Source of the DNA: Nitrospira sp.
GTDB lineage: Bacteria; Nitrospirota; Nitrospiria; Nitrospirales; UBA8639
Length of the DNA: 64,000 nucleotides
Direction: 5' to 3'
NCBI GenBank assembly: GCA_011523385.1
Contig: WTGX01000028.1
Coordinates: 1 to 64,000 of the forward strand
The notes under the pieces were generated by a model that saw nothing but the letters and a program-made list of their open reading frames with translations, was not told where the DNA came from and ran no database searches. Both the position numbers and the translations under genes were made by a program. Positions 15,974 through 32,015 of this stretch are shown one piece after another. How positions within the stretch are numbered: position 1 is the first letter of the stretch; each line of letters opens with the position of its first letter.

Positions 15974-17800
15974 TTAGGCTTGGCCTTTTTCCTTCCTCCG
16001 GTTGGCACGGCGGCCCAGCACCCAGCCTTCGATAATCACGATCCCTACCGTGATCAAGCCAGGATACACGTACGTGGTCAATGGAATCTGCGGCTCCATC
16101 ACCAGATAATAGAAGGCCGACACCGCCATCTTGCGGCCCACGTCCCCATTGTGCCCGTCCCATGCAAAAAACACCATCGGGATGTATTTGCCAGGCTCCA
16201 GGTACGCCACTTCTTCGTAGTCGCCTTTGATCGGCCGCTTGATAATCACGGTCCACCGGCCATTGGCCCACTCCGCTTTCACGACCTCCACTTCTTCCAT
16301 GAAGTCCAACTCGGTGAGGTCCTGATCCCAGCCCGTGCCTTCATACACACCCAAGGTCCCATCCGCCGTCCATTTCGTCAAATCCACGGCAAACCTCTCG
16401 TCTCCCCAGAAGTAACGCGGCTTCCGCGGGGCCGGCAGCTCCTGCCACTTGACCGGGAATTGGAACGCCACCCCGTCGTTGTACACGGTATAGCCGTCTT
16501 TTTGCTTGGCCGCAATCGATTCCTGATGGAACGGATCTTCGGCAAACGTCGTACCCTGTGGGGCCTGTTCCTCAACGCCATAGTCCCCCAGGTTCACTTC
16601 CGTGGGATCCCAGTCCACTTCATCTTCCTGAATACTCTTGGTCCGGTCATCCCATCGGAACATGAATTCGATGTGCGTTTCGTTATACAGCGCTTGCACC
16701 CACATGTCGTCGATTCGGTTCACGAAGTTCCGGGGTTTGTGCGTGATCTGGCCTCCCATGGCCAACCACCGCCGGGGAATCAGCTTCCACCGCTCGTCAT
16801 TTTCATCCGTAGGGAGATCCCCCTCCACGAACTTGGACGGAATCACGAAGTTACTCTTCGGTTTGTCCGTCAGCGGGTCGATCGGCAAGGGCGACGCCGC
16901 GGAGAAGGCCTGCGCTGTTTCATCGCTCACCTGCCCTTGCGGCGCGGGAATCTCATGCTCACGTTCACAGAGGGAGTTGACGTAGTTGGCAATGTCCCAC
17001 CGCTCATCCACGCTGGTATTGTCGGCAAACGACGGCATCGGCGTTCCGTTCAGCCCCGTGGAGAAGGTCCGGAAGATGTTCCTGACGTTGTACGGGTCCT
17101 GCCGGCTGCCCCGGAAGTTCCAGCATTTGTGCCAGTCCGCCGGTTGAATGCTGAATCCCCAGTCATCCTTCAGGTTGAACGCATTCCCGTCCCCCCGGCC
17201 TTCCAGTCCGTGACATTCGATGCATTTCTTTTCCACCACCAATTCTGAACCCCGCTTAATGGACTCCGGCGTGTTCTGTTTCGGGGTGAGCTGGTCCAAC
17301 TGCAACACAAACAATTCTTCGAATTCTTCATCCTGCCACGACCGGTCCTCGACCAGTTGGGTCGTCACGAAGGCCAACACGTCTTTTCGTTGCTGTTCCG
17401 TAAGAATGCCTTCCCAGGACGGCATGGCGGAGCCCGGCAGGCCGTGCGTGACCGTTTGGAGGAGGTCCAGGTCGATCAGGGGCAACTGCCCGCTGGCCGT
17501 GTGCCGGATCTTAAAGGTGCCCGCGTTGAAGTTCCTCGGTCGCGGCCACAACCGCACCGCGCCCGGCCCGTCCCCGGCCCCTCCCACTCCGTGACACCAC
17601 ACGCATTTGGTAAAGTACACCCGTTTTCCCGCTTCAATCTGCTCAGCCGGCGGGGGCGACGGCAGGCCTTGCTGTTTGAAGCCTTCCGGGAGATCTTCCT
17701 GGGCTCCGCTACTCAGGGGGAGCCCCAGCCCCAGCAGGACACTCACGCTCAAGCACACACCCCACCGGGCCAAGTTCCTTCCATATCTGCTCTTACTCAT
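15974..17800 (-). CDS. Di-haem cytochrome c with ethylbenzene-dehydrogenase-like haem domain (NxrC-like)
   Basis: 608 residues. A signal peptide precedes two cytochrome c domains with CVWCH near 65 and CIECH near 191. Residues about 320-570 resemble the haem-b-binding gamma subunit domain of ethylbenzene dehydrogenase and related DMSO-reductase-family enzymes. A C-terminal membrane helix (near 577-595) anchors it. A protein like this would pass electrons in the periplasm from a molybdoenzyme or donor cytochrome to an oxidase. It is the last gene of an operon with two other cytochromes and a bd-like oxidase. The ATG at 17800 has GGAG seven bases upstream; the open frame begins 20 codons earlier. 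NxrC is the closest role I can name, but this is inference. Confidence 0.8.
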   Translation of the reverse strand: MSKSRYGRNLARWGVCLSVSVLLGLGLPLSSGAQEDLPEGFKQQGLPSPPPAEQIEAGKRVYFTKCVWCHGVGGAGDGPGAVRLWPRPRNFNAGTFKIRHTASGQLPLIDLDLLQTVTHGLPGSAMPSWEGILTEQQRKDVLAFVTTQLVEDRSWQDEEFEELFVLQLDQLTPKQNTPESIKRGSELVVEKKCIECHGLEGRGDGNAFNLKDDWGFSIQPADWHKCWNFRGSRQDPYNVRNIFRTFSTGLNGTPMPSFADNTSVDERWDIANYVNSLCEREHEIPAPQGQVSDETAQAFSAASPLPIDPLTDKPKSNFVIPSKFVEGDLPTDENDERWKLIPRRWLAMGGQITHKPRNFVNRIDDMWVQALYNETHIEFMFRWDDRTKSIQEDEVDWDPTEVNLGDYGVEEQAPQGTTFAEDPFHQESIAAKQKDGYTVYNDGVAFQFPVKWQELPAPRKPRYFWGDERFAVDLTKWTADGTLGVYEGTGWDQDLTELDFMEEVEVVKAEWANGRWTVIIKRPIKGDYEEVAYLEPGKYIPMVFFAWDGHNGDVGRKMAVSAFYYLVMEPQIPLTTYVYPGLITVGIVIIEGWVLGRRANRRKEKGQA

Positions 17801-17823
17801 GGCTCGTCTCCGCTCCTCTTCTC

Positions 17824-18789
17824 TTAATCCCAGGTCCGGGGATAGTAGCCCGTGTGCCAATATTCGAACATCACGACTTTCCAGATTTCATCCACGGTCA
17901 GGTGCTGCTCCCACGGCGGCATCACCGAGGCCCAGGGGAAACCTTCCCCAGGCAGCCCGATCCCGCCTTTCGAGACCCGCCAGAACACAAACGTTTCCTG
18001 TAGCTGCGCAATCGTCCCCGCGTCCGTGAAGTTCGCCGGAATCGGGTTGAAGGCGTACGCCCACAGGCCACGCCCGTTCAGGTTGTCCCCGTGACAGAAG
18101 TGGCAGTTCTGAAAGAAGATCTCGCCCCCTTCCCGCACGTACTTGGTATAGCCTTCGGCATTGGGGTCCCACGGGTTGTAATTCGGGTCGTTGACGTCTT
18201 TCATCAACCGCCCCATGGCCTGCTCCACGATTCGCGCATCCGTGTATGCCTGATCGTATTTCCCCTCGTTGTTCACCCGATAGGGATTTTCCACCACTTG
18301 CAACACAAAGGTCTTGCCATGCACCTTCGTGGTGGCCGGCGGCGCCGGATGCACAGTGCGCAACTCGATGGGTTCTTCAAAACTGGGCAGGAACGAGGTA
18401 TACGCAAACCCACCCAACGCCAGCGGAATCACGATCAAGGACACGGTGCGGACCGCCTTGTGAAACCCGCTGATCCCGTCCATCACGTTCATCACCGGCC
18501 GTTTGAACTCCTGCCACGCGTCTTCCGACCCCGACACCCACATGAAAATCCCGCAGGCCGACACCGTGCCGTAAATCGCCCGCACGCTGAACGGAATGGG
18601 CGGATAAATGCGGTATTTCAAATAGAGCTGGATGTAGATCCACACGCCCACTCCCGCCCAAAACTTGGGAATGCCCATGCCAGCACGATTCAGCGTCCAG
18701 TTGAGCAGCGCAAATACGAGAATCGAACCGGCCAACTCCGAAATCATCTGCATCGGCATGTAGCCTTCGACTAACTTTAACCAGGTCAT
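17824..18789 (-). CDS. Membrane-anchored mono-haem cytochrome c
   Basis: 321 residues. The N-terminal third holds two or three membrane helices (residues about 15-90 and again near 115-135), then a periplasmic cytochrome c domain with one haem site, CHFCH near 228, and a likely Met ligand in ASVMPPWEQHLT. It starts with ATG after AGGAG. It follows the larger two-haem cytochrome gene by 40 bases and precedes the NxrC-like gene by 23, so the three form one electron-transfer unit with the bd-like oxidase. Probable role: electron entry to that oxidase from periplasmic carriers. Confidence 0.85.
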   Translation of the reverse strand: MTWLKLVEGYMPMQMISELAGSILVFALLNWTLNRAGMGIPKFWAGVGVWIYIQLYLKYRIYPPIPFSVRAIYGTVSACGIFMWVSGSEDAWQEFKRPVMNVMDGISGFHKAVRTVSLIVIPLALGGFAYTSFLPSFEEPIELRTVHPAPPATTKVHGKTFVLQVVENPYRVNNEGKYDQAYTDARIVEQAMGRLMKDVNDPNYNPWDPNAEGYTKYVREGGEIFFQNCHFCHGDNLNGRGLWAYAFNPIPANFTDAGTIAQLQETFVFWRVSKGGIGLPGEGFPWASVMPPWEQHLTVDEIWKVVMFEYWHTGYYPRTWD

Positions 18790-18829
18790 CGTATTAAACT
18801 CCTGTTTTCTGAATCACAGAGTTTCAGGA

Positions 18830-20146
18830 TTAATTAAAATCTTCCAATACCGGTAGATCCTGCCCTTCTTTTAAGCTGGACAGATAATCCACAATCTTGT
18901 TCACGGCTCCCGCGCTGAGCTTCAGACCAAAATCTTTCGGCATCTGGTTGTCCGGGAAATCTTTCACCACGTACATACTGGGATTCAAGATCGACTCGGT
19001 AATGTATTCACGAGCCGACGTGGCATGACCTCCATACCCCGGGTCCTTCAACCGTTTGGGAGCATTGCTGCCTTCCATCAACAAGGGACCGACCTTTCCG
19101 GTTGCCCCTTCAATCCCAGGAATCGTATGACAGGCCGGACACCCGGCTTTCATGAAGAGGTCCGTAATCGGCTCTTCACCCGTCGCCAACACGCCACCCG
19201 CTGCTTCATCCCCGCCGGCACTCGCCTGAGGCCGGTCAGCTTCGGGAATGAATTTTTCATACGACGCCTGAATTTCTTCATACGTGGGGGCATCCTTGCC
19301 TTCCCGAACGTACAACCAAGTATCCACAGCTGCCAATTCTCCGAGGGTCAGCGAAATCGGGGGCTTGTGAATTCTAGGCATGGGGCTTTCCTTGTCGTTC
19401 GTTCCTTTCACCCCGAATCCCGGCACGACAAAACAACTTGGACAGGCGTGCGACTCGGCGATATATTCCTGACCGGTCGTGGCCGTCCCCGAGCCCTCAA
19501 ACGCTTCTTTTTGCACGGTGTCTCGCGAACCGGGATCATTCATATGATACTTTTCGTGTTTCAGCCGCTCTTCGGCCCGTGCCGGGATATCCCACAGATT
19601 CGGAGCCCGTTCACTCAGGAAGCCCTGGTTAAAACCGTGACACAGAGGACACTGGCCCTTCCCGATTGCGCCCTGAACTTTACTTTGGCCAAGACCGCCG
19701 AAGATAATCTTTTCACCCTCATCGCCCAATTGCTGGGCCGTCATGCTCTGGAAGTCCAGCTTGACTTCCGGTGGCGGGAACCCCCCTTCCACCTGGGGCA
19801 ACCAGTTGCCATACCCGGACAAGGCCGCAGCCACGAAAAACATAAAGCCGCCGATTTTCATGAGCGCCCCAATATTGGTAAAGTAGATGCCCATGATATA
19901 GGCCAGGCACGTAATCATCACCAAGGAGACGGGCAACAAGCGGCTTTCTCCATAGAAATTATTCTTGTAATTCGCAATGGCAATAAAAGCCATAAGCGCA
20001 CATAACATGCCGATAAACGTCTTGAACGTGACATTCTTTTTTTGAACGGGATCGGTCGTTCTGGCTTGAAAATAAAAGAGTAGCCCTATCAAAAAGGCGA
20101 ATGCCGGCCATCCAATCGAGATTGCTTCCGTAATTAATTCAACCAC
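18830..20146 (-). CDS. Membrane-anchored multi-domain cytochrome c with one degenerate haem site
   Basis: 438 residues from a GTG start at 20146 that has GGAGG six bases upstream; the frame opens 5 codons earlier with TTG. About four membrane helices come first (to about residue 110), then three cytochrome-like segments. CPLCH (near 167) and CPACH (near 337) are normal haem attachment sites; the middle one reads CPSCF (near 235), lacking the histidine ligand. It sits between the bd-like oxidase and another cytochrome and probably forms part of the same respiratory complex. A strong hairpin precedes the start codon. Confidence 0.85.
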   Translation of the reverse strand: MVELITEAISIGWPAFAFLIGLLFYFQARTTDPVQKKNVTFKTFIGMLCALMAFIAIANYKNNFYGESRLLPVSLVMITCLAYIMGIYFTNIGALMKIGGFMFFVAAALSGYGNWLPQVEGGFPPPEVKLDFQSMTAQQLGDEGEKIIFGGLGQSKVQGAIGKGQCPLCHGFNQGFLSERAPNLWDIPARAEERLKHEKYHMNDPGSRDTVQKEAFEGSGTATTGQEYIAESHACPSCFVVPGFGVKGTNDKESPMPRIHKPPISLTLGELAAVDTWLYVREGKDAPTYEEIQASYEKFIPEADRPQASAGGDEAAGGVLATGEEPITDLFMKAGCPACHTIPGIEGATGKVGPLLMEGSNAPKRLKDPGYGGHATSAREYITESILNPSMYVVKDFPDNQMPKDFGLKLSAGAVNKIVDYLSSLKEGQDLPVLEDFN

Positions 20147-20162
20147 TTTGCCCCTCCACAAA

Positions 20163-20228: not shown

Positions 20229-22193
20229 TTAATGACCAGTTGCAGGTTGCGGCGCGGCACCCGGAACGGGCTGCGTCGCAGGCACGGGCGCTTTCTTGGC
20301 TCCCAGTGCCCCAAGCCAAAAGACGAACATGATCGTGATCCAGAAGAACAACACGTTAAAGGAGATCACGTTGGCCCCAAAACCAATGGTATGCGTGTAC
20401 GCCCATGGCGAATTGTCACGCATAATCTCATTGACGTGCCAGAACAACCTCACGGACGACCGGATATATCCCATCAGTCCCATCATCCATGTAAAGGCCG
20501 TTGCCAGCATAATCAGGGCATATTGTGAACGCGGTGCAATCTGACCCCACCGGATCGGTCCAAGTTCCCTTGACTGCTTTAACATGGCCAAGTTCAAGGC
20601 CGAACCGATAAACAGGCACGATAGCGTACCGGCGACCTGCGGAACCGAGAGACCGATTCGCACGTTTGCAGGGATGAAGTACCCGTAACAGGCCACCCAG
20701 ATATTGTTCAAATGAGCCACCACAAAGAACGTGATCAGGAAGATGTTTCCGAACTTCGCCCATTTTACCGCGGGCACCCTGTTACCGCGTTGATACCATA
20801 TGAAACTGGCAATCGTGGTCATGATGATCGCATTAATGCCGCCGTTTTTAGCCGACATCACGCCATAGTTCCCCAATACCGGATGCTGTTGACCGCCCAT
20901 GGCCTTTAATTCAGCCGGCGTCATAACGATGGTATGCGGGGTAATAAAGACCAACAGACCCACGACCAGAATAAACACAAAGTATTTGATATAGCGTTGG
21001 AAACGCTCACCTCCGGTCATTCGTCCGAGCGCCTGCCAGAGGTAGTAGTTCGTCGTCAGGAACAGGATACCGATCATGGTGGCCTGAATGATGAACAACC
21101 AAGCCAACAACCCGCCCATCAAGGTAATACCCATTTGTTGACGATAGGCATACACCTCGCGCATGAGCCAATAGCCGGCAAACGGGAGGGGGATCAGGAA
21201 GGCAACCCCGAGGGCCATTGCGATATACCCCATCCAATCGTAATGCGCACGCTCTTCATCATTCTTCGCCGACAGGAACCGGTAAGCGGCATAGGCCGCC
21301 ACCACGCCGCCGCCAAAAGCCATATTCCCGAGAATCCGATGCACGTTCAGCGGATTCCAGAGCGCCGTATGGATCACGTGCCAGATATTTCCCAGATATC
21401 GTCCCTGCTCATCCACGCCTGCGGGCGACATCATGAAACCGATCCAGGAATTGGCCAGGAACATCAACACCGTTCCGATCACGTTCAACACCACGGACAT
21501 ACTGGCATGGAGCCATTTCATCAGCCCCTCTTTCATCTTGTCCCACCCGTAATAGTAGATGTAGAGTGTTCCGCTTTCCGCCACGAACATCAACGCGTAA
21601 ATATGCATCACCGGACGGAAAATGCTTGACAGATAACCAAAGAAGGCAGGATACAAGGTCAGGAACGTGAAAATGAGAATGCCGCCGAGGATGGCCGTCA
21701 GCGAGTAGGCGGTTAAACTGATTTTAATGAAGTCATAGGCCAATTGGTCATATTTCTTCGCCATCGCCCTATCTTTGCTCAGCAACCCGGCAAATTCGAT
21801 ACACATACAGAAGATCGGGACGGCCAGCACAAAGCTGCCATAGTACAGATGTTGCTGGTTGGCCACCCAGAGAAGCACCCGGCTTTCGAAGTTATAGCGG
21901 GGATAAAATTCTGCCGTATCTTGAGTCTTTGGAGCCGGCGCACCGACGACCGGACCCTCAGTCTTGTAGTAGACGTCTCTCCCGATTTCGACTTTCGCTT
22001 CTTCACCTTCCACCCCTTCGGCTTCCTGGGCGGCTACGACATCAGGAGGCGGCCCGCCTGCAGCGGGAGCACCCCCGGCCGCCAAAGCCGGCAATGCCAC
22101 AAAAATCGGGAGCAACAACATGACCCCCATTGCAAAAAGACCAGTGACTGCCAGAAATTTCTTTCCGGCCTGTCCACTTTTGAGGCGACCCAT
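20229..22193 (-). CDS. Cytochrome bd-like oxidase subunit (first copy)
   Basis: 654 residues, about 14 membrane helices plus a signal-like N-terminal helix and an Ala/Gly/Pro-rich segment. It is distantly like CydA: a conserved His in ANQQHLYYGSFVLAVP near 115, then WHVIHTALWNPLNVHRILGN and FITPHTIVMTPAELKAMG. Proteins of this type have been proposed as terminal oxidases in Nitrospira. The ATG at 22193 follows GGAGG; the frame opens with TTG 11 codons earlier. Two tiny membrane-protein genes precede it and cytochrome genes follow it, suggesting a quinol- or cytochrome-c-fed complex. A paralogue lies at 25673-27523. Catalytic activity is not shown by sequence alone. Confidence 0.82.
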   Translation of the reverse strand: MGRLKSGQAGKKFLAVTGLFAMGVMLLLPIFVALPALAAGGAPAAGGPPPDVVAAQEAEGVEGEEAKVEIGRDVYYKTEGPVVGAPAPKTQDTAEFYPRYNFESRVLLWVANQQHLYYGSFVLAVPIFCMCIEFAGLLSKDRAMAKKYDQLAYDFIKISLTAYSLTAILGGILIFTFLTLYPAFFGYLSSIFRPVMHIYALMFVAESGTLYIYYYGWDKMKEGLMKWLHASMSVVLNVIGTVLMFLANSWIGFMMSPAGVDEQGRYLGNIWHVIHTALWNPLNVHRILGNMAFGGGVVAAYAAYRFLSAKNDEERAHYDWMGYIAMALGVAFLIPLPFAGYWLMREVYAYRQQMGITLMGGLLAWLFIIQATMIGILFLTTNYYLWQALGRMTGGERFQRYIKYFVFILVVGLLVFITPHTIVMTPAELKAMGGQQHPVLGNYGVMSAKNGGINAIIMTTIASFIWYQRGNRVPAVKWAKFGNIFLITFFVVAHLNNIWVACYGYFIPANVRIGLSVPQVAGTLSCLFIGSALNLAMLKQSRELGPIRWGQIAPRSQYALIMLATAFTWMMGLMGYIRSSVRLFWHVNEIMRDNSPWAYTHTIGFGANVISFNVLFFWITIMFVFWLGALGAKKAPVPATQPVPGAAPQPATGH

Positions 22194-22266: not shown

Positions 22267-22383
22267 TTACCTCAAAATGTAGAAATAATCCAACCCCTGC
22301 ATATCCATCAGAGCCCAGTCGATGAACTGAAAATATGCCACGGAAATCACGATCGAAATGATGAGGTACAGAACGGTTTGCAT
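22267..22383 (-). CDS. 38-residue single-helix membrane peptide
   Basis: Too short for routine gene calling, but well supported: the ATG at 22383 is preceded by GGGGAGGAG at good spacing, and the product is MQTVLYLIISIVISVAYFQF followed by 18 more residues with Trp, Tyr and Phe near the membrane edge. It lies 74 bases before the bd-like oxidase gene on the same strand. Small single-helix subunits such as CydX and CydH stabilise classical bd oxidases; this peptide is a candidate for a similar role, although it shows no clear sequence similarity to them. Confidence 0.7.
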   Translation of the reverse strand: MQTVLYLIISIVISVAYFQFIDWALMDMQGLDYFYILR

Positions 22384-22411: not shown

Positions 22412-22525
22412 TCAACAAGGACATTGCACGCCGGCAAACCAATAAAAAAACCACAAGCTCACGGCGCAGGTCACATAGAAAATCGCCTTGCCCAGCTTGA
22501 TCGGAAGCGGATCACTTTTTGCCAT
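22412..22525 (-). CDS. 37-residue single-helix membrane peptide
   Basis: ATG at 22525 with AAGGA about ten bases upstream. The product starts MAKSDPLPIKLGKAIFYVTC, has one membrane helix rich in Trp, Phe and Tyr, and ends CPC, giving three cysteines in 37 residues. It is the first gene of the oxidase operon, 28 bases before the second small gene. The lysines before the helix suggest its N-terminus is cytoplasmic and the CPC end periplasmic, where it could bind metal or form a disulfide. Candidate small subunit of the bd-like oxidase. Confidence 0.68.
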   Translation of the reverse strand: MAKSDPLPIKLGKAIFYVTCAVSLWFFYWFAGVQCPC

Positions 22526-22628: not shown

Positions 22629-22733
22629 ATGCGCAATAACGCAAAATTGTTCGACATTATAGTGTTGGCCGGGATGGTTGTCAATATTCTTTTGGCCGTC
22701 TTTCTGATCCTCTATTACTTCGATTTTCTCTAG
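22629..22733 (+). CDS. Possible 34-residue membrane peptide
   Basis: A short plus-strand frame, ATG to TAG, encoding MRNNAKLFDIIVLAGMVVNI and then 14 more mostly hydrophobic residues ending YYFDFL: one membrane helix with a basic start. It lies in the gap between the two divergent-looking oxidase units and ends just before the stop of the SUMF1-like gene. No clear ribosome binding site is visible, so it may be chance; the composition is, however, typical of a real small membrane protein. Confidence 0.4.
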   Translation: MRNNAKLFDIIVLAGMVVNILLAVFLILYYFDFL

Positions 22734-22739
22734 CCTTCG

Positions 22740-23654
22740 CTACTCCCGGGTACCTGCAGCCAGCGTGCGGGCCGGCGGTTTTTCCCCCGACGCCACACAG
22801 CGGAAGCCTATGGTTTCGTCGCGAAAGTCGGGAACCATGAAGCTCCGGGCTGTAATCCTCAAATCGTTGCCGTAACTGGTGTATCCGGCGCCCCGCAGGG
22901 TCTTATACCCTCCGCGATCGGCAAAATTCGCCTCTTCGGGTTCGGGATCATTGGGATGACGAGCTTGCTCTTCATACCAATTATGGGTCCATTCCATCAG
23001 GTTTCCAAAGCCGTCGTGCACGCCATACGGGCTTCGATCCAATGGGAACGAGCCAACTGACGCCGTGGCTTCATAGCCGTCCTCCGCCCCTCCCAGATTG
23101 GCTTTGTGGATTCGCGGAGAATTGCCCCAGGGCCACAACCGGCCGTCAATCCCTCGCATGGCCTTTTCCCATTCCGCTTCCCCAGGCAGGCGTTTTCCCC
23201 TCCATTTGCAATACGCATCGGCATCATGCCAGGAAACGTAAGCCACCGGCTGGTTGGGCCCACGCAATTGGGCCAACCGTTTGGCATAGCGGGAAGGAGG
23301 GCCCGGTTTGCGATGTCCGGTCTGTTCCACAAACTGGAGATAGTGGTGATTCGTGACCTCATACCGGTCGATCCAAAATCCATCAAGGGTCACGAGACGT
23401 TCGGGTCGTTCATTGAACCCGCCCTGACCGGTCCCCTGAACGAACTGTCCGGGAGGAATGAACACCATGTCTTCAGGAAGGATCGGTTGGGATGGGTCGG
23501 ACAGAGAGTCGCCGGTCTCCTGAACGGGTTTGACGACCTCCGCAAGTTCGGGGTCAGGCGGCGGAGCTTTGGTCCCGCGCAGAATGCCCGATACCGGCAT
23601 GCCCACCATGAATAATATCACGGCAAGCAGGATCAGTTTCAGTCTCCCGTCCAT
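22740..23654 (-). CDS. Membrane-anchored SUMF1/FGE-fold protein (first copy)
   Basis: 304 residues. An N-terminal membrane helix (MDGRLKLILLAVILFMVG) is followed from about residue 60 by a formylglycine-generating-enzyme-type sulfatase-modifying domain: MVFIPPGQFVQGTGQGG, GFWIDRYEVTNHHYLQFVEQ, LPGEAEWEKAMRG, DGFGNLMEWTHNWY and the terminal DETIGFRCV. The cysteine pair that binds copper in true FGE is missing, so it is unlikely to oxidise sulfatase cysteines. No sulfatase is nearby. It is the last gene of the second bd-like oxidase operon and has a tandem relative just upstream. An assembly or binding role at the outer face of the membrane is more likely. Confidence 0.82.
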   Translation of the reverse strand: MDGRLKLILLAVILFMVGMPVSGILRGTKAPPPDPELAEVVKPVQETGDSLSDPSQPILPEDMVFIPPGQFVQGTGQGGFNERPERLVTLDGFWIDRYEVTNHHYLQFVEQTGHRKPGPPSRYAKRLAQLRGPNQPVAYVSWHDADAYCKWRGKRLPGEAEWEKAMRGIDGRLWPWGNSPRIHKANLGGAEDGYEATASVGSFPLDRSPYGVHDGFGNLMEWTHNWYEEQARHPNDPEPEEANFADRGGYKTLRGAGYTSYGNDLRITARSFMVPDFRDETIGFRCVASGEKPPARTLAAGTRE

Positions 23655-23690
23655 GGTCGCGGAACCTCAATAGCCCCCGCTCCAAGACCG

Positions 23691-24605
23691 TCAGGTTGCT
23701 TGTTCGACGGTATCGACGTCCTGGGCGCACCGGAAGCCGATTGTCGCGTCGGTTCGCCACATCTTGGCTGAAAACCGTTTGGTCAATCTCGCGTTGAGTT
23801 TGGAATCGCGCCAGGTCCCGCCGCGAATGACCTTGAATTCCGTACTGTCCGGACCGGGAGGATCGCGAAACGGCGAATTCTGATAATATTCGGCGTCATA
23901 GGTATCCGCCACCCATTCCGCCACGTTGCCCGTCATATCGTAGACCCCATACGGACTCCGCCCGCCCTCAAAAGACCCGACCGGCGACAAATATTGAAAC
24001 CCGTCTTCTTCCCCGTCAATATTGGAAACCATGTAGCTGAACTCACTCCCCCAGGGATAGAGCCGCCGCCCTTCACCACGAGCGGCTTTCTCCCATTCCG
24101 CTTCGGTCGGCAATCGTTTCCCGGCCCATCGGCAATACCCGAAGGCATCGTTCCAGCCGATCCCCACGACGGGAAAGTCCGGGTCAACGAGTTTCGCAAT
24201 GTCTTCTTCAAAGACCGGCACCTGAGGTTGCTCCCGCTTGGTCATCTTGACGAAACGCGCGTATTCCGACTGGGTGACTTCCTTCAAATCGATGAAATAC
24301 GTTCGCACGTATACCGGATGAGCCGGTGCTTCATCGGGATCCCCTTGATCATTCCCCATGGTAAAGGGGCCTTCGGGAATCTCGACCATCTCACGGCCTT
24401 CATTGCCGACCAGCGTCCGGTACATGGAAAAATCCCGGACTTTCACCGGAGCGATGACCCGGGGTTTGGTCGTCTGCGACTTCGACGCCAGCCGGTCCAA
24501 CTCCTGCTGCCCCTTATACGTTTCATAGATCAGCATCACCATCATCAGGATGAACGAAGCAAACACAAAGATGATGGAACCGATCAGCACCCCGCGATTT
24601 TCCAT
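23691..24605 (-). CDS. Membrane-anchored SUMF1/FGE-fold protein (second copy)
   Basis: 304 residues, same layout as its downstream neighbour: an N-terminal helix (VLIGSIIFVFASFILMMVML), a short linker, then the SUMF1 fold with MVEIPEGPFTMGNDQGDPDE, YFIDLKEVTQSEYARFVK, RLPTEAEWEKAARGEG, YDMTGNVAEWVADTYD and TIGFRCA. Again no catalytic cysteine pair is present. It lies 36 bases before the first copy and 22 bases after a small glycine-rich membrane protein gene, within the second bd-like oxidase operon. The two copies probably arose by duplication but are now quite different in sequence. Confidence 0.82.
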   Translation of the reverse strand: MENRGVLIGSIIFVFASFILMMVMLIYETYKGQQELDRLASKSQTTKPRVIAPVKVRDFSMYRTLVGNEGREMVEIPEGPFTMGNDQGDPDEAPAHPVYVRTYFIDLKEVTQSEYARFVKMTKREQPQVPVFEEDIAKLVDPDFPVVGIGWNDAFGYCRWAGKRLPTEAEWEKAARGEGRRLYPWGSEFSYMVSNIDGEEDGFQYLSPVGSFEGGRSPYGVYDMTGNVAEWVADTYDAEYYQNSPFRDPPGPDSTEFKVIRGGTWRDSKLNARLTKRFSAKMWRTDATIGFRCAQDVDTVEQAT

Positions 24606-24627
24606 AAGCCCGATCCCCGATAAACGG

Positions 24628-24990
24628 TCAACCGCCGCCGCTTCCCGTCCCCGCCTCCGCTTCGTGGTCGGCAGTGGCCTGCACCGGTTTTCTCCAAAAC
24701 ACGTCGATCAACATGGAGATCCAAATCCCCAAAAATCCGCCCATCGCCGCGCCGGACCCCGCGCCGACCGTAATATTCTCCGGTCCGGAAACGGCCCAGG
24801 CCAGCGCACCCCCAAAAAACGTACCGACAAAAATACCGAGAAAAAACCGGCGTCCGCCAATGAGACCGATCCCGGTCCCCAAAATGACTCCGAGCCCCGT
24901 TGCGAAATAGAGAAAAGAGCCGCCCAGGAGAATGCCGATGAGCACCCCGACCGTCCCCATGACCGCCACGCCAAGGACCACGTCTATCAT
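24628..24990 (-). CDS. Glycine-rich membrane protein
   Basis: 120 residues from the ATG at 24990, which has AAAGGA just upstream; the frame opens 41 codons earlier inside the preceding gene. Three or four hydrophobic segments packed with glycine ([40 protein letters not shown]) suggest helices packed through GxxxG-type contacts. The tail is charged and Gly-rich. I do not recognise a family. It belongs to the second bd-like oxidase operon by spacing and strand. Confidence 0.7.
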
Positions 24991-25040
24991 GGTTCCTTTG
25001 GAAATTGCAGATCTCCCTGTCGCCACGCGACCGCGAGGCG

Positions 25041-25676
25041 TTATTCCGCCCGCACCGCGATCGAACCGAAATCGATTTCCACCCCCGGGCCGCTTTGCAG
25101 GGAAATACCCCATGCCCGCTCGGCCGGTTCATGTTGATGGATCTCCTTGAAGTCCTTGTAGGCATTGACCGTTTCTTCCACCCATTCACCCAACGGTTGC
25201 GGGCCCGAACGAACCACGACCTCCGCCGCGCCGAACAATCCGCCGTCCGTCACGGAACCGGTGGCTTTCGTGCCGCTCCAGACGTACTTCGTGGACACCG
25301 GAATAAACATCAGATCCGTATCCAGATTCGCAAAAACGGCCGCAAGAAATTCAGCCTTCTCCGGGACGACGTGCAGGCGCCATCGCCACGTGAGAACAGG
25401 GTGGGTGCGGGGATCCCAATCAATGTTCTTGGTATACACACGCTGGTTCGCGCCTTTGCCTTTCAGGAACGCGGTGTCCCCTTCCCGGTGAATGGCATAA
25501 GCCTCTCTTGCGGTGATCGTACTTCGGGACCCGTCCCATTCTTTCGGGAACTGCTCCTCATCAGGACTTTGAAAATTTTCGAGCGTCACGACCTGCGAGA
25601 AAGCCGTTCCGGGCGGCATGGGAACACAAAACACAAACAGGGAAAGACACGTGACGAGTATTCTTCCCGTCCTCAT
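25041..25676 (-). CDS. Exported DUF3047-family protein
   Basis: 211 residues. The start at 25676 overlaps the stop codon of the oxidase gene (ATGA), so translation is coupled. A signal peptide ([20 protein letters not shown]) is followed by a domain typical of DUF3047: [20 protein letters not shown] and a C-terminal [17 protein letters not shown]. The fold is probably a periplasmic beta-sandwich. The biochemical function of the family is not known to me. Its tight coupling to the bd-like oxidase suggests a role at the periplasmic side of that complex. Confidence 0.78.
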
Positions 25677-27523
25677 ACCGACTCCTCTCGAGAGAACGCC
25701 TGCACGAACGACATGCTCGGTGCGTCCTTTTCCACGACGGCCGGCCGTTTGTCCCGTGTGGCCAGCCAAAACATGAAAAACACCGAAGCCCAGAACAACA
25801 CCATGTTGATGGTCACCATTTTGGCCGCAAACGTGATGGCAGGAGTAAAAGCCCAAGGGGAAACGTCAGCCATCAGCTCATTCACGTGCCATCCCAACCG
25901 GCCGGCCGACCGGATATACCCCATCAAGCCCATCACCCAGGAAAAGGTCGCGGCGACTCCGAACAACGCCACCATCCCGCGCGCGGAGATCCCGCCCCAT
26001 TGGATGGGACCGCGAATCCCGCTCCCCTTCAACAGAAAATGATTGAGCGCCAACCCTCCGAGCAGGACCGTCGCCGTGGTCGCACCCTGCGGAATGGAGA
26101 GGCCGACCCGAACGTGGGCGGGAATGAAAAACCCGTACACCGAGACCCAGACGATATTGGCCATGCCCACGACAAACAACGCCCCGATCGCCACGTTTCC
26201 CGCCGCGGCCCACGGCACGGTAATGATGCGGTTGGCGCGGCGATACAGCAGGTAGCTCAGGGCGGTCAGGCAGATCATGACGTTGATGGCACCGTTTTTC
26301 GCCGACATCACCCCAAACTGTCCGATCACCGGATGTTGCGCCGCGCCCATGGCTTTCATTTCGCTTGGCGTCATGGCAATGGTATGGGGGGTGAACCAGA
26401 CCAGAAACGACACCATCAGTCCGCCGAGAATAAATTTGAAATAGGGATGATATCGTTCCCCGTCACGCAACCGTCCCAGGGACTGCCAGATGTAATAATT
26501 GATACCGAGAAACAGCGCACCGATGGTGGTGGCCTGGACCACGAACAGCCAGGACAACAATCCGCCCATCATGGTCATACCCATTTCCTGACGGAATTCG
26601 AACACGGAACGCATCAGCCAATACCCGGCAAAGGGCATGGGAAGCAACGCACACACCACCACGACGATAAACACGTACCCCACCCAATCATAATAGGCCC
26701 GTTCCTCCCGGACCCGGGTCTTCAAAAACCGGTACGCGGCATAGGCCACGACGACGGCCCCACCGGACATAATATCCGCCAGGAACCGATGGGCATTCAG
26801 CGGATTCCATAACGGCGAATGCAACAAATGCCAGACGTTCCCCAAAAATTGTCCCTCGGCGTTCACTCCCGCGGGCGCCATCATAAACGACGCCCAGGCA
26901 TTGGCCAGCAGGAGCAGCATCACGCCCATGCCATTCGCCACGACCCCGATCGACAAATGCACCCATTTCCCCGCACCCCGGGCCAGGCGGTCCCAACTGT
27001 AGTAGTACAACACCAGGAGGAAAGATTCCCCCAAAAACACCGCGGCATACAACGGCATCATCTGTTTGAACGTGGAACCCATGTACGTCATGAACACGGG
27101 ATAGAACGTGATGAACGCCCCAAGCATCACGCTGCCGAGCAGGGCCGTAACCGAGAGCGAAACCACCCCGACGCGAAGAATGTCGCGACCCAGACCGTCG
27201 TACCGTTGGGCTGCCCGTGGATCACGACGCGTCAGACTCAACAACTCCAGGAGAAACGCAAACAGCGGCAGGGCCAGAACGAACCCGCCGAAATAGGTAT
27301 GCTGCTGCGTGACGAGCCAGATGATGATCCGGTTATTGAGCGGTTGCCACTGCGGGTAGGTGGAGCCGGTTTCCGTTGCCGGAGGGCCTTGAGGGGTACC
27401 GGCGGTCTTATAATAAACGTCCTCGGTCAGGGTTGAAGCATCCTGACCGGCCCACCCCGGCATCGGCGCAGCAAGCACAAAGCCCAGCACACACAACAGG
27501 AAAACAGACACGCCGGTTTTCAT
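25673..27523 (-). CDS. Cytochrome bd-like oxidase subunit (second copy)
   Basis: 616 residues from the ATG at 27523, which overlaps the preceding stop (ATGA). A signal-like helix is followed by about 14 membrane helices. It is clearly a paralogue of the protein at 20229-22193: shared blocks include VTQQHTYFGGFVLALP, WHLLHSPLWNPLNAHRF, MPFAGYWLMRSVFEFRQEMG, FTPHTIAMTPSEMKAMGAAQ and GLMGYIRSAGRLGWHVNE. Unlike the first copy, no cytochrome c genes accompany it; instead it is coupled to a membrane protein of unknown function and DUF3047. It may use quinol directly or a separate donor. Confidence 0.8.
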   Translation of the reverse strand: MKTGVSVFLLCVLGFVLAAPMPGWAGQDASTLTEDVYYKTAGTPQGPPATETGSTYPQWQPLNNRIIIWLVTQQHTYFGGFVLALPLFAFLLELLSLTRRDPRAAQRYDGLGRDILRVGVVSLSVTALLGSVMLGAFITFYPVFMTYMGSTFKQMMPLYAAVFLGESFLLVLYYYSWDRLARGAGKWVHLSIGVVANGMGVMLLLLANAWASFMMAPAGVNAEGQFLGNVWHLLHSPLWNPLNAHRFLADIMSGGAVVVAYAAYRFLKTRVREERAYYDWVGYVFIVVVVCALLPMPFAGYWLMRSVFEFRQEMGMTMMGGLLSWLFVVQATTIGALFLGINYYIWQSLGRLRDGERYHPYFKFILGGLMVSFLVWFTPHTIAMTPSEMKAMGAAQHPVIGQFGVMSAKNGAINVMICLTALSYLLYRRANRIITVPWAAAGNVAIGALFVVGMANIVWVSVYGFFIPAHVRVGLSIPQGATTATVLLGGLALNHFLLKGSGIRGPIQWGGISARGMVALFGVAATFSWVMGLMGYIRSAGRLGWHVNELMADVSPWAFTPAITFAAKMVTINMVLFWASVFFMFWLATRDKRPAVVEKDAPSMSFVQAFSREESV

Positions 27524-28608
27524 GAAAACGTCTCTCGCGAGGGTTCTCCCTGACTGATCTCGACAGGTTCCCCCTTCCGTTCTGACGTCACCCACCCGGT
27601 TTTGGCCAAAATTTCCATCACGAACGGACAACGTTTCAAGCCTTCGGAGATACCGCCCCGTGTTTGCGTCTCCACAAAGACCCGGACCCCCAAAAAATAG
27701 CCGTACCCGGCCATCACCCCCGCGGTCACCCCGCCGACCGCCAGGTGAACGAAAAGGGCCGCGTCCTCAACCTGCAACACAAAGGCGATGAAGCCGAATT
27801 GCACTAAATAGTAAGTGAATGCAAAAGTCAAACACGGCCACGTCCAAAACCGGCAGGCTTCCAACCACGACTCGATTCTGAAGCGATCGGGGAAGTTGTC
27901 GAGAGGACGTTTCCCGGACAAGAAAGCCCCATGGGCGCAGAACGCCGCCACTATACAGACCAGGATTGCCGGGCTGACTTCCCCCCCGTTGCCGGCCCAG
28001 CCGAGCCGGGACAGGATCGCGGTGGCCCCGCCGGCGACGATTCCCGCGCCCACCCATGGGGCCAAATGAAGAAAGTCGCGCTGAAGCAATTCACGAAACG
28101 ACCCGCCGTCGGGAAAAGTCACCATCCTTGCACCTTGGGCTTCCATTCTGACCACGTGCCCGATTTCAAAGGCGTCACGAGCGACCGACGTACAGGGGAT
28201 AATCAGGGCCATCATGACCGGACCTTCGGGATGAACCAGAAAATTGTAATCGACAAAGAGTGCCAGGATCGCCAACACCAGCAACGAAAGTTGCACGCCG
28301 TAGGCGAACCCGATCCATCCGCCGACCCAGAAAAGACGGCTTGGATTATCGGTCCGGCAAATCCGGGGCAACGTCTCCCCGCGTCCCATCACATAGGCCC
28401 AATACGCGGTGAGCGTCGAAAGGACGCCGCTGAACGCCAACAATGCCAGCGGATCGGATAAGGGCAGCACGTCCTTCAAGAGACGATAGAGGACAAACGC
28501 CACGAGCCCCGGAGCCAGCATCACCCGGCGCTTCCGTCTGCGAACGCCGGGTTCCGTGACGGTCGCGTTCAGTTGGGGAATCACCCGGAGCGCAAGTCGA
28601 TGCAGCAT
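27520..28608 (-). CDS. Polytopic membrane protein, family not recognised
   Basis: 362 residues with about eight hydrophobic segments, for example GLVAFVLYRLLKDVLPLSD, GVQLSLLVLAILALFVDYNF and WVGAGIVAGGATAILSRLGW. Several His residues flank helices (FEIGHVVRM, CAHGAFLSG, FLHLAPWVG) and might bind haem, but there is no recognisable cytochrome signature. The gene ends with an ATGA overlap into the second bd-like oxidase gene, which suggests the two products form a complex, perhaps with this one in the place of CydB. That is inference from context only. Confidence 0.65.
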   Translation of the reverse strand: MLHRLALRVIPQLNATVTEPGVRRRKRRVMLAPGLVAFVLYRLLKDVLPLSDPLALLAFSGVLSTLTAYWAYVMGRGETLPRICRTDNPSRLFWVGGWIGFAYGVQLSLLVLAILALFVDYNFLVHPEGPVMMALIIPCTSVARDAFEIGHVVRMEAQGARMVTFPDGGSFRELLQRDFLHLAPWVGAGIVAGGATAILSRLGWAGNGGEVSPAILVCIVAAFCAHGAFLSGKRPLDNFPDRFRIESWLEACRFWTWPCLTFAFTYYLVQFGFIAFVLQVEDAALFVHLAVGGVTAGVMAGYGYFLGVRVFVETQTRGGISEGLKRCPFVMEILAKTGWVTSERKGEPVEISQGEPSRETFS

Positions 28609-28811
28609 CGGAAACTCTCAAAGGACGGAAATTGTCGTTGGCATGAAATACCCACTTTGATGTAGCGGCGACATCCATTCGGGACGGCACCATTCGGCTT
28701 CGCTTCCTTCGACTTCGCTCAGGACAGGCAGGGCAGGCTCAGGCCGTCCCCTACGGCCGGGGAGAGCCCGTATTATCTGTAGGGGCAGGCCCCTCGGAGA
28801 CGTTCTGCGCC
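28609..28811. other. Intergenic gap with repeat fragment
   Basis: Between the PCP_red protein gene and the membrane protein gene. It holds a piece of a dispersed repeat (CTTCGACTTCGCTCAGGACA near 28709-28728) related to sequences near 56667 and 57990, and a short inverted repeat around GGGGCAGGCCCCT. No gene is evident. Confidence 0.5.
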
Positions 28812-29294
28812 TTACCCCCTCGGGGCTGCCATGCCGAAATAGCGGGCCTTGATTTCTTCCATCAACTCCACCGTAACTTCGGGGAGGCCTCGGTCCTGGG
28901 CCGTCCGCTCCAACTCCACGCGCGCCATCGCGCGAACCGGCCCCGGAACGCGCGACAAACGTTGCTTCGCCTCGGGATGCCAGGACACCATCCCTTGGGT
29001 ACCGGCTTCCATCATGACGTCGGTCGAGATCACGGTGAGGCCGTTTCGATCCGCATAGCCTTCCACGTCCTGCCGGACAAGAGGCTCCACATACGGCGGA
29101 AGCCGGTCCAACCGATGCCGGGCCTCATCCGTCCAGGCCGGACGGTCGAACAACACACCGCCTTTTCGATGGTCCGTCTCGATTCCCACACGAAACCCGC
29201 ATCGTTCACAGCGATAACGAAGAAAGACCTGGCCGTCATCCCGTTCCTCGAGGATCTCACACCGGAAATCAGAGCCGCAGGCGCATCGCATCAT
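28812..29294 (-). CDS. Zinc-ribbon protein with two PCP_red-type domains
   Basis: 160 residues. The N-terminus has two cysteine pairs (CACGSDFRC and CERCGF) of zinc-ribbon type. Two copies of a small helical domain follow, one starting WTDEARHRLDRLPPYVEPLV and the other WHPEAKQRLSRVPGPVRAMA. This pattern matches the C-terminal 'PCP_red' domain of light-independent protochlorophyllide reductase subunit B, which also occurs alone in non-phototrophs. Its function there is unclear; a link to tetrapyrrole or haem handling is a reasonable guess, since the operon contains a bd-like oxidase and a DUF420 protein. It ends about 200 bases before the next gene. Confidence 0.7.
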   Translation of the reverse strand: MMRCACGSDFRCEILEERDDGQVFLRYRCERCGFRVGIETDHRKGGVLFDRPAWTDEARHRLDRLPPYVEPLVRQDVEGYADRNGLTVISTDVMMEAGTQGMVSWHPEAKQRLSRVPGPVRAMARVELERTAQDRGLPEVTVELMEEIKARYFGMAAPRG

Positions 29295-29298
29295 AAGA

Positions 29299-30015
29299 CT
29301 ACCCGATTCGTCCGGGATACAAGATATACAGCATGGTATAGGTAATACTGCCGGTCAGGAACAACACACAATACACCACCATGGTAAAACGGCCCAGGAC
29401 CCTGTGTCGTCGCGCCCCATTCGGCCACAGACGTTGAATGGCCACTTCGACACCGAACACCAGGGCAATGAGGATAAGGAGTCCGAGATAGACGCCGAAT
29501 TTACCCATGGAAAAACCGCTGGCGGCCACGCGACTGAAAAACAACAGCAACACGAGCGCCGTCACCACCCCCAGGATCATCGCTATTTTTTTTCCGGTGG
29601 TTTGCAGGATGGCCTCTTGCAACTGACGCCGGCCGTTGACGAAGGTCTGAGAACGAAATCCCAGGACAATCATATAAATGGCCATGATCAATCCAATCAC
29701 GACCAGGAGAATGTGAAAGGTCAACAGAGGCACGAACACGTTGTCATACAACGCCTGCGACCCGCCGAACCCCTCCTTGCCCTCAAAAGCCAGCACGCCA
29801 AGCTGGCGAAACAAATAATAACTGACGAAAAATGCCAGCATGGCGATCATCCCGCCGAGCATCAACCAATGATGACCGCTCGCGCGACTCTTTTTGGCCT
29901 GAATCCACCCGACGATAAACAACCCGGTGAACAAGGTGGCCATCAACTGACTGATATCGGCCCCCATGGTAGCATGCGTCCCCACAAACCCCGGCTCTCG
30001 TAACCATTCAGCCAT
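29299..30015 (-). CDS. DUF420 (CtaM-like) membrane protein
   Basis: 238 residues with about six membrane helices. Features of DUF420 are visible: an N-terminal HATMGADISQ segment, HHWLMLGGMIAMLAFFVSYY, LTFHILLVVIGLIMAIYMIV and a C-terminal RRHRVLGRFTMVVYCVLFLTG followed by a Tyr-rich end. In Bacillus and Staphylococcus the related CtaM is needed to mature haem-A-containing oxidases, so a role in assembling the oxidase encoded downstream is plausible. It starts directly after the methyltransferase stop codon and is 4 bases from the PCP_red gene, so these are one operon. Confidence 0.78.
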   Translation of the reverse strand: MAEWLREPGFVGTHATMGADISQLMATLFTGLFIVGWIQAKKSRASGHHWLMLGGMIAMLAFFVSYYLFRQLGVLAFEGKEGFGGSQALYDNVFVPLLTFHILLVVIGLIMAIYMIVLGFRSQTFVNGRRQLQEAILQTTGKKIAMILGVVTALVLLLFFSRVAASGFSMGKFGVYLGLLILIALVFGVEVAIQRLWPNGARRHRVLGRFTMVVYCVLFLTGSITYTMLYILYPGRIG

Positions 30016-31005
30016 TTAATCCTCTCCTGATTTGATTCCCTGAACAATCGCCCGCGGTTCCAGTTCCGTGACGGAAGCGAAGCCGGCCCGGGTCATCCAT
30101 TCCATGGCCTCCTGGGTCGTGAAGCACTGTCCTTCTTCCGTATTGACCAGAATATGCACGGCAAATGCCGTGGTCCAGGCCGGACTCGTTCGATCCGGGT
30201 CCAAAAACCGGTCCTTGATCACCAACCGGCCCGCGTCCGTGAGGTGAGCAAAGGCCTTGTGTACCAATGCGGCGTTGGCTTGCGCGTCCTGGTAATGAAG
30301 CACGTCGGACAAAAGCACAAGATCATAGAGGCCGCCCAATGAATCCGTATTGAAATTGCCCGGCATGACGGCAATTCGATCCTCCAATCCGGCTTCCTTG
30401 ATCGACCGTTCGGTCACCTGGAGGGTTGAAGGCAGATCAAACACCGTGGCGCTAAGACCAGGATACTCCCGGCAAAAAGCAATCGCATTCGTCCCGGCTC
30501 CCCCGCCGACGTCCAGCATCCGTTCAACGCCACCCAGTTGCAGCACCTTCGCGAGGATGACTCCGCTCCCCCGGCCGATCCGGTCCAGAACCGCCAGCAC
30601 GTTGGCACCCATCTCCGGGTTGGTTTCAAAGACGTGCCGCCGGACCGGAGACGCACCTGTCCTGACGGTCTCTTCCAGTTTTCCCCAATTCATCCATTCC
30701 GAGTCGTGCAAAACCAGCAGGTGCCCCACGTAATCCGGGCTGACTTTCACCAGGTGCTTCCGGGCCACGCTGGTATTCGCAAATCGACCCTCGTGTTTGG
30801 TCAGGACCCGCATCGCCACTAATGCGTTTAAAACGAGGCTCAACGCCCGTTCATCCAGAGATAAACGCTTGGCCAGGTCAGGGGGAGAATCGGACCGGCC
30901 ATCCAGGGCTGAAAAAAGATCCAGCTTGATCGCCGTGAGGAGAATTTTCGTCTCCCAGTAATACCCGGTCTGAAATATTTCTGCGAGAGAGAGCTCCCGA
31001 GGCAC
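30016..31005 (-). CDS. SAM-dependent O-methyltransferase (acetylserotonin O-methyltransferase type)
   Basis: 329 residues. An N-terminal winged-helix dimerisation domain (SLAEIFQTGYYWETKILLTA through LSLVLNALVAMRVLTK) is followed by a Rossmann methyltransferase with the SAM-binding motif LDVGGGAGTNAIAF and FDLPSTL. Members methylate hydroxyl groups of small aromatic, polyketide, carotenoid or tetrapyrrole compounds; the substrate here is unknown. The GTG at 31005 has AAAGGA six bases upstream. It is the first gene of the second bd-like oxidase operon, which raises the possibility of a quinone or haem modification, but this is speculative. Confidence 0.83.
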   Translation of the reverse strand: MPRELSLAEIFQTGYYWETKILLTAIKLDLFSALDGRSDSPPDLAKRLSLDERALSLVLNALVAMRVLTKHEGRFANTSVARKHLVKVSPDYVGHLLVLHDSEWMNWGKLEETVRTGASPVRRHVFETNPEMGANVLAVLDRIGRGSGVILAKVLQLGGVERMLDVGGGAGTNAIAFCREYPGLSATVFDLPSTLQVTERSIKEAGLEDRIAVMPGNFNTDSLGGLYDLVLLSDVLHYQDAQANAALVHKAFAHLTDAGRLVIKDRFLDPDRTSPAWTTAFAVHILVNTEEGQCFTTQEAMEWMTRAGFASVTELEPRAIVQGIKSGED

Positions 31006-31092: not shown

Positions 31093-31106
31093 GAACGCGC
31101 ACAAAG

Positions 31107-31145
31107 CAAAAAGGGCGGCAACGATGAACCGTTACCGCCCTTTTC
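31107..31145 (-). terminator. Rho-independent terminator after the cupredoxin-like gene
   Basis: Eleven-base-pair stem with one mismatch (arms 31113-31123 and 31130-31140), six-base loop, then five T in the minus direction. A T-run on the other side as well could make it work in both directions. Confidence 0.8.
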
Positions 31146-31170
31146 ACTACTGCAAAGAGGAAAGACGTAT

Positions 31171-31959
31171 TTACATTTTGAACTTGTTTTTCTTTTTGAT
31201 GTCGAAGTTGGCTTCAACGGTCCCACCGTCCTTCACTTCGACTTCCACGGTCACGTTGCCGGCCACCGGGTGCCAGGCCAGGACCTTGTGCTTGCCTGCG
31301 GGAACGTCTTTGATCTCAAAAGATCCGTCGCCGCCGGACACGCCAAAATGACCGTTGCTCACGGGCAGGTACCAGGCTTGCATAAACTCGTGCTGGTCAC
31401 ATTGCAACCGAAGCACGGAACCTTTCCTGGCCATCCGCATCTTGATCTTCTTGTCCAGTTTGTCGCCTTTCTTGGCCAACCCGATATTGAACAGGGTCGA
31501 AGATTTCGCGCCGAGCACGTCGAAGCTATGGGGATTATGCAACACCCCTTCCTTGGACTTGGGATCATTGGGGTCGGCATCGGTATTTTCCACGACGAAG
31601 TTGCCCTTGTTCACCAACACGCCGGTAAACGGCAGAAACTCACACAACTTGGCGATCACGGTCGGCGTCGTCTTAAAGCCTTTGTCCTTAATACCGCGAA
31701 CCGACACGATCGCGTTCTTGAGCCCTTTGTTTCCATCCACTTCGACTTCCTTCAACAAACGCGTGTCATCCCCTTTTTTGCTGGGATTTTGTTTACAAAA
31801 GGCCGGATTGGGAAATTTGGAAAAGGCAAATTCTTTTGGCGGAACGGGCTTGCCGGAATACATGACCTTTCCCTTAATGGTTCCGCCGGCTTGAGCAATC
31901 AGTGGCATTGCAACCAGCAACCCACCAAGGCACAAAGTAAGCAACTGACGAGTCCTCAT
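31171..31959 (-). CDS. Exported cupredoxin-like / carboxypeptidase-regulatory-like protein
   Basis: 262 residues from the ATG at 31959. A signal peptide (LLTLCLGGLLVAMPLIAQAG) precedes a beta-sandwich that begins GGTIKGKVMYSGKPVPP, as in carboxypeptidase regulatory-like domains. A candidate copper site is visible: HNPHSFDVLG in the middle and LQCDQHEFMQAWYLPVSN near residue 186, giving Cys-x2-His-x2-Met plus an upstream His. The segment DGSFEIKDVPAGKHKVLAWH follows. Two relatives lie at 37036-38871. It has its own strong promoter and a terminator, so it is expressed alone. Likely periplasmic; electron transfer or copper binding is inferred from the motif. Confidence 0.75.
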   Translation of the reverse strand: MRTRQLLTLCLGGLLVAMPLIAQAGGTIKGKVMYSGKPVPPKEFAFSKFPNPAFCKQNPSKKGDDTRLLKEVEVDGNKGLKNAIVSVRGIKDKGFKTTPTVIAKLCEFLPFTGVLVNKGNFVVENTDADPNDPKSKEGVLHNPHSFDVLGAKSSTLFNIGLAKKGDKLDKKIKMRMARKGSVLRLQCDQHEFMQAWYLPVSNGHFGVSGGDGSFEIKDVPAGKHKVLAWHPVAGNVTVEVEVKDGGTVEANFDIKKKNKFKM

Positions 31960-32015
31960 AGATATTCCTCCTGGTGATAAAATCCTCGAATCTTCTGTCA
32001 CGCACACAATCTGGC

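Follow-up and report, generated by a model that had tools for sequence, protein, structure and literature searches.

A conserved nine-gene operon around an altered CydA paralogue of Nitrospirales, probably part of the nitrite-respiration machinery

Nitrospira are major nitrite oxidisers, and the locus described here bears on the routes by which they couple the oxidation of nitrite to O2 and to reverse electron transport. It lies in a 64,000-nucleotide stretch of a Nitrospira sp. genome (the window; positions 1 to 64,000 of contig WTGX01000028.1, assembly GCA_011523385.1), where nine minus-strand genes between 22,740 and 31,005 surround a cytochrome bd-like protein, here called ox2. What does a bd-like protein do in such an operon? 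An initial annotation, made from the letters of the window alone, read it as a second bd-like oxidase, a complex plus its assembly factors. All nine genes were found at the coordinates and with the families that it had given (Table 1), in the transcription order methyltransferase, DUF420, PCP_red, p362 (a 362-residue membrane protein), ox2, DUF3047, Gly-rich protein, SUMF A and SUMF B. The operon is apparently an undescribed one, kept across the order Nitrospirales in the lineage with nitrite oxidoreductase (NXR), and probably belongs, as a dedicated unit, to the machinery of nitrite respiration. Four points are new: the loss of a glutamate from ox2, the joint absence of the module and of NxrA and NxrB from f4 (a family of the same order), the apparent recruitment of p362 and DUF3047, and the operon borders, with a promoter embedded in a small gene (smA).

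The paralogue itself is not new. ox2 is bd-like_4 and its neighbour outside the operon, ox1, is bd-like_3, both named in Nitrospira moscoviensis with the ox1/ox2 arrangement (PMC6606698); the main text of that paper describes no operon partners, no residue loss in bd-like_4 and no small genes. No account of the genes that accompany ox2 in the operon was found in the accessible literature, the founding OR-N classification paper and supplements lying outside the search. "Second bd-like oxidase" was right in that ox2 is a paralogue of ox1, and too narrow in that the genome holds four bd-like matches. The other two, on C24, are probably OR-N1 and OR-N2, members of the same superfamily whose CydA paralogues are also proposed to pair, with cytochrome c as the proposed donor (PMC12342949, PMC10839748). 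As a CydA plus CydA' pair, OR-N1/OR-N2 has been proposed as the main terminal oxidase in Nitrospirales (PMC12342949). ox1 and ox2 would form a separate pair, and the ox2 operon, unlike OR-N1/OR-N2, has no cytochrome c.

At the residue level, ox2 matches the Pfam family Cyt_bd_oxida_I with 68.3 bits (cut-off 26.2), keeps the haem-ligand positions and lacks one acidic residue. Numbering follows E. coli CydA. The equivalents of its H19, H186 and M393 are kept in 20/20 aligned ox2 sequences, and the E107 equivalent is kept in 17/20 and lost in 3/20. The position of ox1 E346 is Ser in 18/20 ox2 and Ala in 2/20. Each of the 48 other bd-like sequences aligned has Glu there; they comprise ox1, f4, Nitrospinota, anammox and betaproteobacterial proteins and the two other paralogues of the source genome. 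In E. coli CydA the aligned residue is an Asp near the periplasmic end of the sixth helix, the quinol entry side in canonical CydA. Because an otherwise invariant acidic residue is lost, it is doubtful that ox2 is a working oxidase, and the residue at ox1 E346 may be needed for oxygen-reductase activity. At the quinol site that marks canonical quinol-oxidising bd oxidases (qOR), ox2 has a gap at E257, Arg or Ser at K252 and Leu at Q449, and the combination of K252/E257 with GRQPW was not found. The claim of an operon with "no cytochromes" thus needs dividing: for c-type haem it stands, since a CXXCH scan of all nine proteins found none, and for b-type haem it does not, since ox2 keeps the ligand positions.

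The AlphaFold (AF2) model of ox2 was weak (pLDDT 63) and too poor for placing residues; its top Foldseek matches were all CydA chains (best E 7.7e-05). In a 68-sequence tree, ox1 and ox2 each formed one clade in 100% of the bootstrap trees. They grouped with Nitrospinota and, further out, with the anammox bd-like proteins, and the ox1/ox2 split relative to Nitrospinota and f4 received moderate support only (83-87). From family f1 to f3, identity is about 60% for ox2 vs about 80% for ox1, so ox2 diverges faster.

The initial annotation had staked its reading on the neighbourhood recurring in other genomes, and it does recur. In 32 of the 40 loci fetched (families f1, f2 and f3), the nine genes keep their order, with ox1 and its cytochromes next in line. 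Contig ends interrupt seven of the eight others; the eighth, L044, from a genome 78% complete, holds only PCP_red-p362-ox2 and a DUF420 remnant. In N. moscoviensis, orthologues of ox1, ox2, p362, PCP_red, DUF420 and the methyltransferase are located together. p362 is present in 54/60 close relatives and in 138/144 Nitrospirales sampled (138/141 without f4). The ATGA overlaps that flank ox2 are real in the source genome (27520-27523 and 25673-25676) and are not conserved as such among relatives, where short gaps often replace them: p362-ox2 spacing is <=0 in 13/38 loci and <50 bp in 35/38, and ox2-DUF3047 spacing is <=0 in 11/36 and <50 bp in 31/36.

The source genome encodes NxrA, whose closest PDB relative is Kuenenia NXR, and NxrB; thus the organism has the gene set of a nitrite oxidiser of the Nitrospirales. 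In four f4 genomes, we found no p362, NxrA or NxrB. The ox1 locus, examined in three of these genomes, runs ox1-cyt c-cyt c-EB_dh with no ox2-type gene; a relative of SUMF B lies upstream of ox1 in the two f4 genomes where that side is intact, and DUF3047 and DUF420 are encoded elsewhere in f4 genomes. Module and NXR go together when lineages are compared, but not in every single genome. A per-genome rule that the module equals NXR was rejected because of mismatches among metagenome-assembled genomes (MAGs) and because of G043, in which NXR is present and neither the module nor a full ox1 was seen. Gaps in MAGs at the multicopy nxr genes are the likely source of such mismatches. We also observed distant NxrA relatives in Nitrospirota outside the class (G096, G113, G157, G217, G219, G351 and others; 44% identity for one listed).

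In N. moscoviensis, Nitrospina and anammox bacteria, nitrite oxidation has been linked with a cluster of alt-NxrC, cytochrome c and a bd-like protein (PMC6606698, PMC3578206). The NXR clusters of Kuenenia, Nitrospina and Nitrospira share alt-NxrC, mono- and dihaem cytochromes c, zinc-finger-like and cupredoxin-like proteins and one bd-like protein near NXR (PMC3578206). Neither a DUF3047 gene nor one for the Gly-rich protein turned up near NXR in the loci fetched, and p362 was not found in 23 non-Nitrospirales genomes that bear NXR, anammox and Nitrospinota included.

For p362, the AF2 model is all-helical and fairly confident (pLDDT 83). It matched no PDB fold at E<=0.001, there was no CydB among the 50 matches shown, and a sequence-profile search of the PDB gave no match. 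We rejected p362 as a CydB, as no CydB-like or other solved fold matched, so it is not simply the missing partner subunit of a bd oxidase. Its conserved features are MLHRL at the start, HPxGPxMM, RDAFExG and RCPF. Nine outgroup genomes at class level hold relatives (E 1e-27 to 1e-39), and no bd-like or other operon gene adjoins them except in G223, where p362 is followed by a kinase gene and then by the methyltransferase and DUF420. Several of these relatives are placed between a peptidase M16 gene and genes for MlaA, MlaC and an MMPL transporter (families confirmed at one locus). DUF3047 has no PDB relative by profile, and the relatives encoded outside the operon have neighbours resembling, by sequence, LarC, PdxA or cation exchangers. 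That either protein is oxidase-specific by origin was therefore rejected, their outside relatives being far from oxidases. Nearly all operon-bearing genomes have one copy of each, so the simplest reading is that existing class-wide genes moved next to ox2, which would make both of them recruits.

Among the other partners, the methyltransferase has O-methyltransferases as its PDB relatives. BchU, the bacteriochlorophyllide C-20 methyltransferase, was tried and rejected (TIGR02716, 74 bits vs an equivalog cut-off of 276). The methyltransferase-DUF420 pair predates the operon and occurs in several outgroup families as well. DUF420 (61.6 bits against Pfam, cut-off 30.5) turned up in each of the 17 other Nitrospiria genomes tested, in N. 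moscoviensis and in four Nitrospinota, and in none of five anammox or betaproteobacterial genomes. CtaM, the DUF420 oxidase assembly factor of Firmicutes, serves haem-copper oxidases. The operon protein is like it in Pfam family and as a small membrane protein beside an oxidase-type gene, and differs in that it adjoins a bd-like protein and in that DUF420 is class-wide, mostly away from oxidases.

PCP_red conserves four cysteines (C4, C6, C29 and C32) and also occurs in anammox NXR clusters; there, in L111 (3621-4994) and other anammox loci, it is fused to universal stress protein domains (Usp-PCP_red). The Gly-rich protein conserves 29/120 positions, mostly Gly. Both SUMF proteins share the full FGE-sulfatase domain of SUMF1, the formylglycine-generating enzyme (FGE). 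SUMF A, aligned to bacterial FGE structures, has no Cys at the catalytic C-x4-C pair, and the pair was not seen in SUMF B either, where it was judged by eye only. SUMF A as a true FGE was rejected on this ground, and FGE chemistry is not expected of it. Non-FGE relatives of the SUMF1 fold include PvdO, GldK and EgtB.

The explanation that we prefer, and hold tentatively, is that ox2 is an altered, CydA'-like haem subunit of an NXR-linked membrane complex, made with assembly factors. The operon would build and hold ox2 as the second NXR-associated bd-like protein of Nitrospirales, a membrane subunit with the CydA fold and b-type haem that would no longer be a normal oxygen reductase. It may act as a CydA'-like partner in a complex through which NXR is connected with the respiratory chain; the likeliest partner of ox2 there would be ox1, encoded in the neighbouring cytochrome c cluster. 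DUF420 (CtaM-like), the methyltransferase, PCP_red and the two membrane-anchored SUMF1-fold proteins, presumably without formylglycine chemistry, would serve in biogenesis or as scaffold; p362, DUF3047 and the Gly-rich protein may be subunits or form an assembly platform. The general idea of a "complex plus its assembly factors" fits an order-wide neighbourhood; what does not hold up is an oxidase-specific origin of p362 and DUF3047, p362 as a simple bd partner and ox2 as a confident oxidase. bd-like_4 becomes a testable unit: an altered CydA paralogue with fixed partners, a new membrane protein family, a distinguishing residue and a link to the NXR lineage.

Several observations weigh against this explanation. 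ox2 could still be catalytic, as its haem-ligand positions are intact and the E107 equivalent mostly is too, and the role of the lost Glu is read from its place in the sequence, the ox2 model being weak. p362 and DUF3047 have relatives that live outside oxidase contexts, and neither NxrA nor NxrB is seen in several f1 and f3 MAGs that carry the module. f4 has ox1 but not ox2, and each of the Nitrospinota carries a single close relative of ox1/ox2, so ox2 is not a general requirement for ox1. Besides, ox1 and ox2 are probably in separate transcription units.

The first of these points leads to the model implied by the initial annotation, in which ox2 is an independent, active bd-like oxygen reductase with p362 as second subunit and the other genes as assembly factors. 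The 20/20 haem-ligand positions, the 17/20 E107 equivalents, the presence of DUF420 and a p362 gene directly upstream, within 50 bp in 35/38 loci, speak for it; we nevertheless regard it as unlikely, since the invariant Glu is lost in 20/20, ox2 diverges faster than ox1, p362 has no CydB-like or solved fold and predates its position beside ox2, and the operon offers no c-type electron donor. The changed residue at the CydA quinol-entry position would also suit a different role, quinone-linked reverse electron transport: ox2, perhaps with p362, would pass electrons from nitrite or cytochrome c to the methyl-plastoquinone (mPQ) pool, the methyltransferase and membrane proteins handling the quinone. 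Nitrospira have only methyl-plastoquinones (PMC12324825), and reverse electron flow has been proposed for the bd-like_3 complex (PMC6606698, PMC3578206). No quinone-site motif was identified, however, none of the reported mPQ genes MpqA-E (PMC13386864) is shown in the operon and the methyltransferase is not assigned to the mPQ pathway, which makes this role rather improbable. A bolder version deserves about as little credence: ox2, p362, DUF3047 and the Gly-rich protein would form an undescribed complex specific to nitrite-oxidising Nitrospirales, in which ox2, changed on the side where electrons enter and no longer an oxidase, would serve reverse electron transport by connecting NXR/ox1 with the methyl-plastoquinone pool.

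Most operon genes resemble assembly or modification factors, the operon has promoter and terminator borders of its own, and SUMF B is kept upstream of ox1 even in f4; a biogenesis hub for the ox1/NXR complex, with ox2 and p362 as a platform for haem or subunit assembly outside the final complex, would account for all three. A many-helix protein with haem-ligand positions would be an unusual chaperone, though, and ox1 is kept in f4, where the rest of the module is missing, so that we give a hub only a small chance. Finally, every member comes from one order, as would be expected if vertical descent had frozen a gene order with no shared function. This is highly improbable: the adjoining order is not frozen, the distance from the operon to the upstream 278-aa gene ranging from 60 to >4000 bp among loci, and relatives of DUF3047 and p362 outside f1-f3 are located elsewhere.

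For the borders of the operon, a hairpin with a T-tract lies between the upstream 278-aa gene (31171-32007) and the methyltransferase, and downstream the operon converges with smA, a gene of 34 codons translated as MRNNAKLFDIIVLAGMVVNILLAVFLILYYFDFL. The presumed single transcript of all nine genes fits these boundaries, a strong terminator upstream and a convergent small gene downstream. smA had no family above cut-off in Pfam or NCBIfam and was not found in the f4 loci. Its variable columns per codon position (14/5/27) bear the mark of a coding gene. Antisense within it is TTGACA-17-TATAAT, both hexamers of which are invariant at synonymous positions in 30/30 smA sequences, and the codons between and around them vary. 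Conservation as promoter alone, or as coding sequence alone, was replaced by both: the stretch appears to be coding sequence plus an embedded antisense promoter of the ox1 cluster. Separate transcription of the ox2 operon and the ox1 cluster is thus probable.

Table 1. Features of the nine-gene operon, its borders and the neighbouring genes (positions in the window)
Feature	Positions	Strand	Evidence or remark
Methyltransferase, Methyltransf_2-type, S-adenosylmethionine-dependent (CrtF/BchU/O-methyltransferase superfamily)	30016..31005	-	First operon gene; Pfam PF00891 4.8e-23
DUF420 membrane protein (CtaM-type oxidase assembly family by analogy)	29299..30015	-	PF04238 1.2e-16
Double PCP_red protein, N-terminal CxC...CxxC (zinc-ribbon-like)	28812..29294	-	PF08369, two stretches
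203-bp intergenic gap, PCP_red to p362, repeat-like insert	28609..28811	-	Gap 5-264 bp among loci
p362, 362-residue multi-helix membrane protein, new family	27520..28608	-	No Pfam/NCBIfam family
ox2, CydA-like (bd-like_4) membrane protein, 616 aa	25673..27523	-	PF01654 6.2e-19; ATG at 27523
DUF3047 protein, N-terminal hydrophobic segment	25041..25676	-	PF11249 3.6e-13
Gly-rich small membrane protein, 120 aa	24628..24990	-	Conserved start is the ATG at 24990; no family above cut-off
SUMF A, SUMF1/FGE-like (FGE-sulfatase), N-terminal membrane anchor	23691..24605	-	PF03781 6.4e-57
SUMF B, SUMF1/FGE-like (FGE-sulfatase), N-terminal membrane anchor	22740..23654	-	Last operon gene; PF03781 2.5e-54
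Hairpin with T-tract, probable terminator, upstream operon border	31106..31148	-	-31.2 kcal/mol, z = -5.88, no shuffle as good
smA, 34-aa single-helix protein, convergent with operon, downstream border	22629..22733	+	32 loci including N. moscoviensis
TTGACA-17-TATAAT, probable ox1-cluster promoter, antisense within smA	22656..22684	-	12/12 to sigma-70 consensus
ox1 (bd-like_3), neighbour outside operon	20229..22193	-	Matches PMC6606698
Two c-type cytochromes and alt-NxrC/EB_dh-like protein, after ox1	15974-20161	-	ox1 cluster
Two conserved 37-38-aa single-helix open reading frames, directly upstream of ox1	22267-22383, 22412-22525	-	One ends in CPC
Upstream 278-aa protein, cupredoxin-like by eye	31171-32007	-	Conserved CDQHEFMQ and HNP motifs

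Within the operon, part of the gap between PCP_red and p362 (28690-28811, minus strand) is a repeat-like sequence with inverted arms, CCTGTCCTGAGCGAAGTCGAAGGA. The gap sequence (28609-28811) folded no better than shuffles, and an Rfam search gave no match.

In the ox1 cluster, the two open reading frames of 37-38 aa are candidates for CydX-like small subunits of ox1, and a relative of the one ending in CPC is present in f4. Together with smA they make three overlooked microproteins that, with the gene-embedded promoter, stand beside what is most likely an NXR-linked complex. In anammox loci, relatives of the 278-aa protein are encoded 3' of nxrA (L111, 13521-14288). Several genomes carry extra copies of ox1, about 77% identical, at L089 (G021:C5), L090 (G052:C29), L088 (G029:C130) and L092 (G030:C1); extra copies lie within a few kb of nxrA in G021, G028 and G032.

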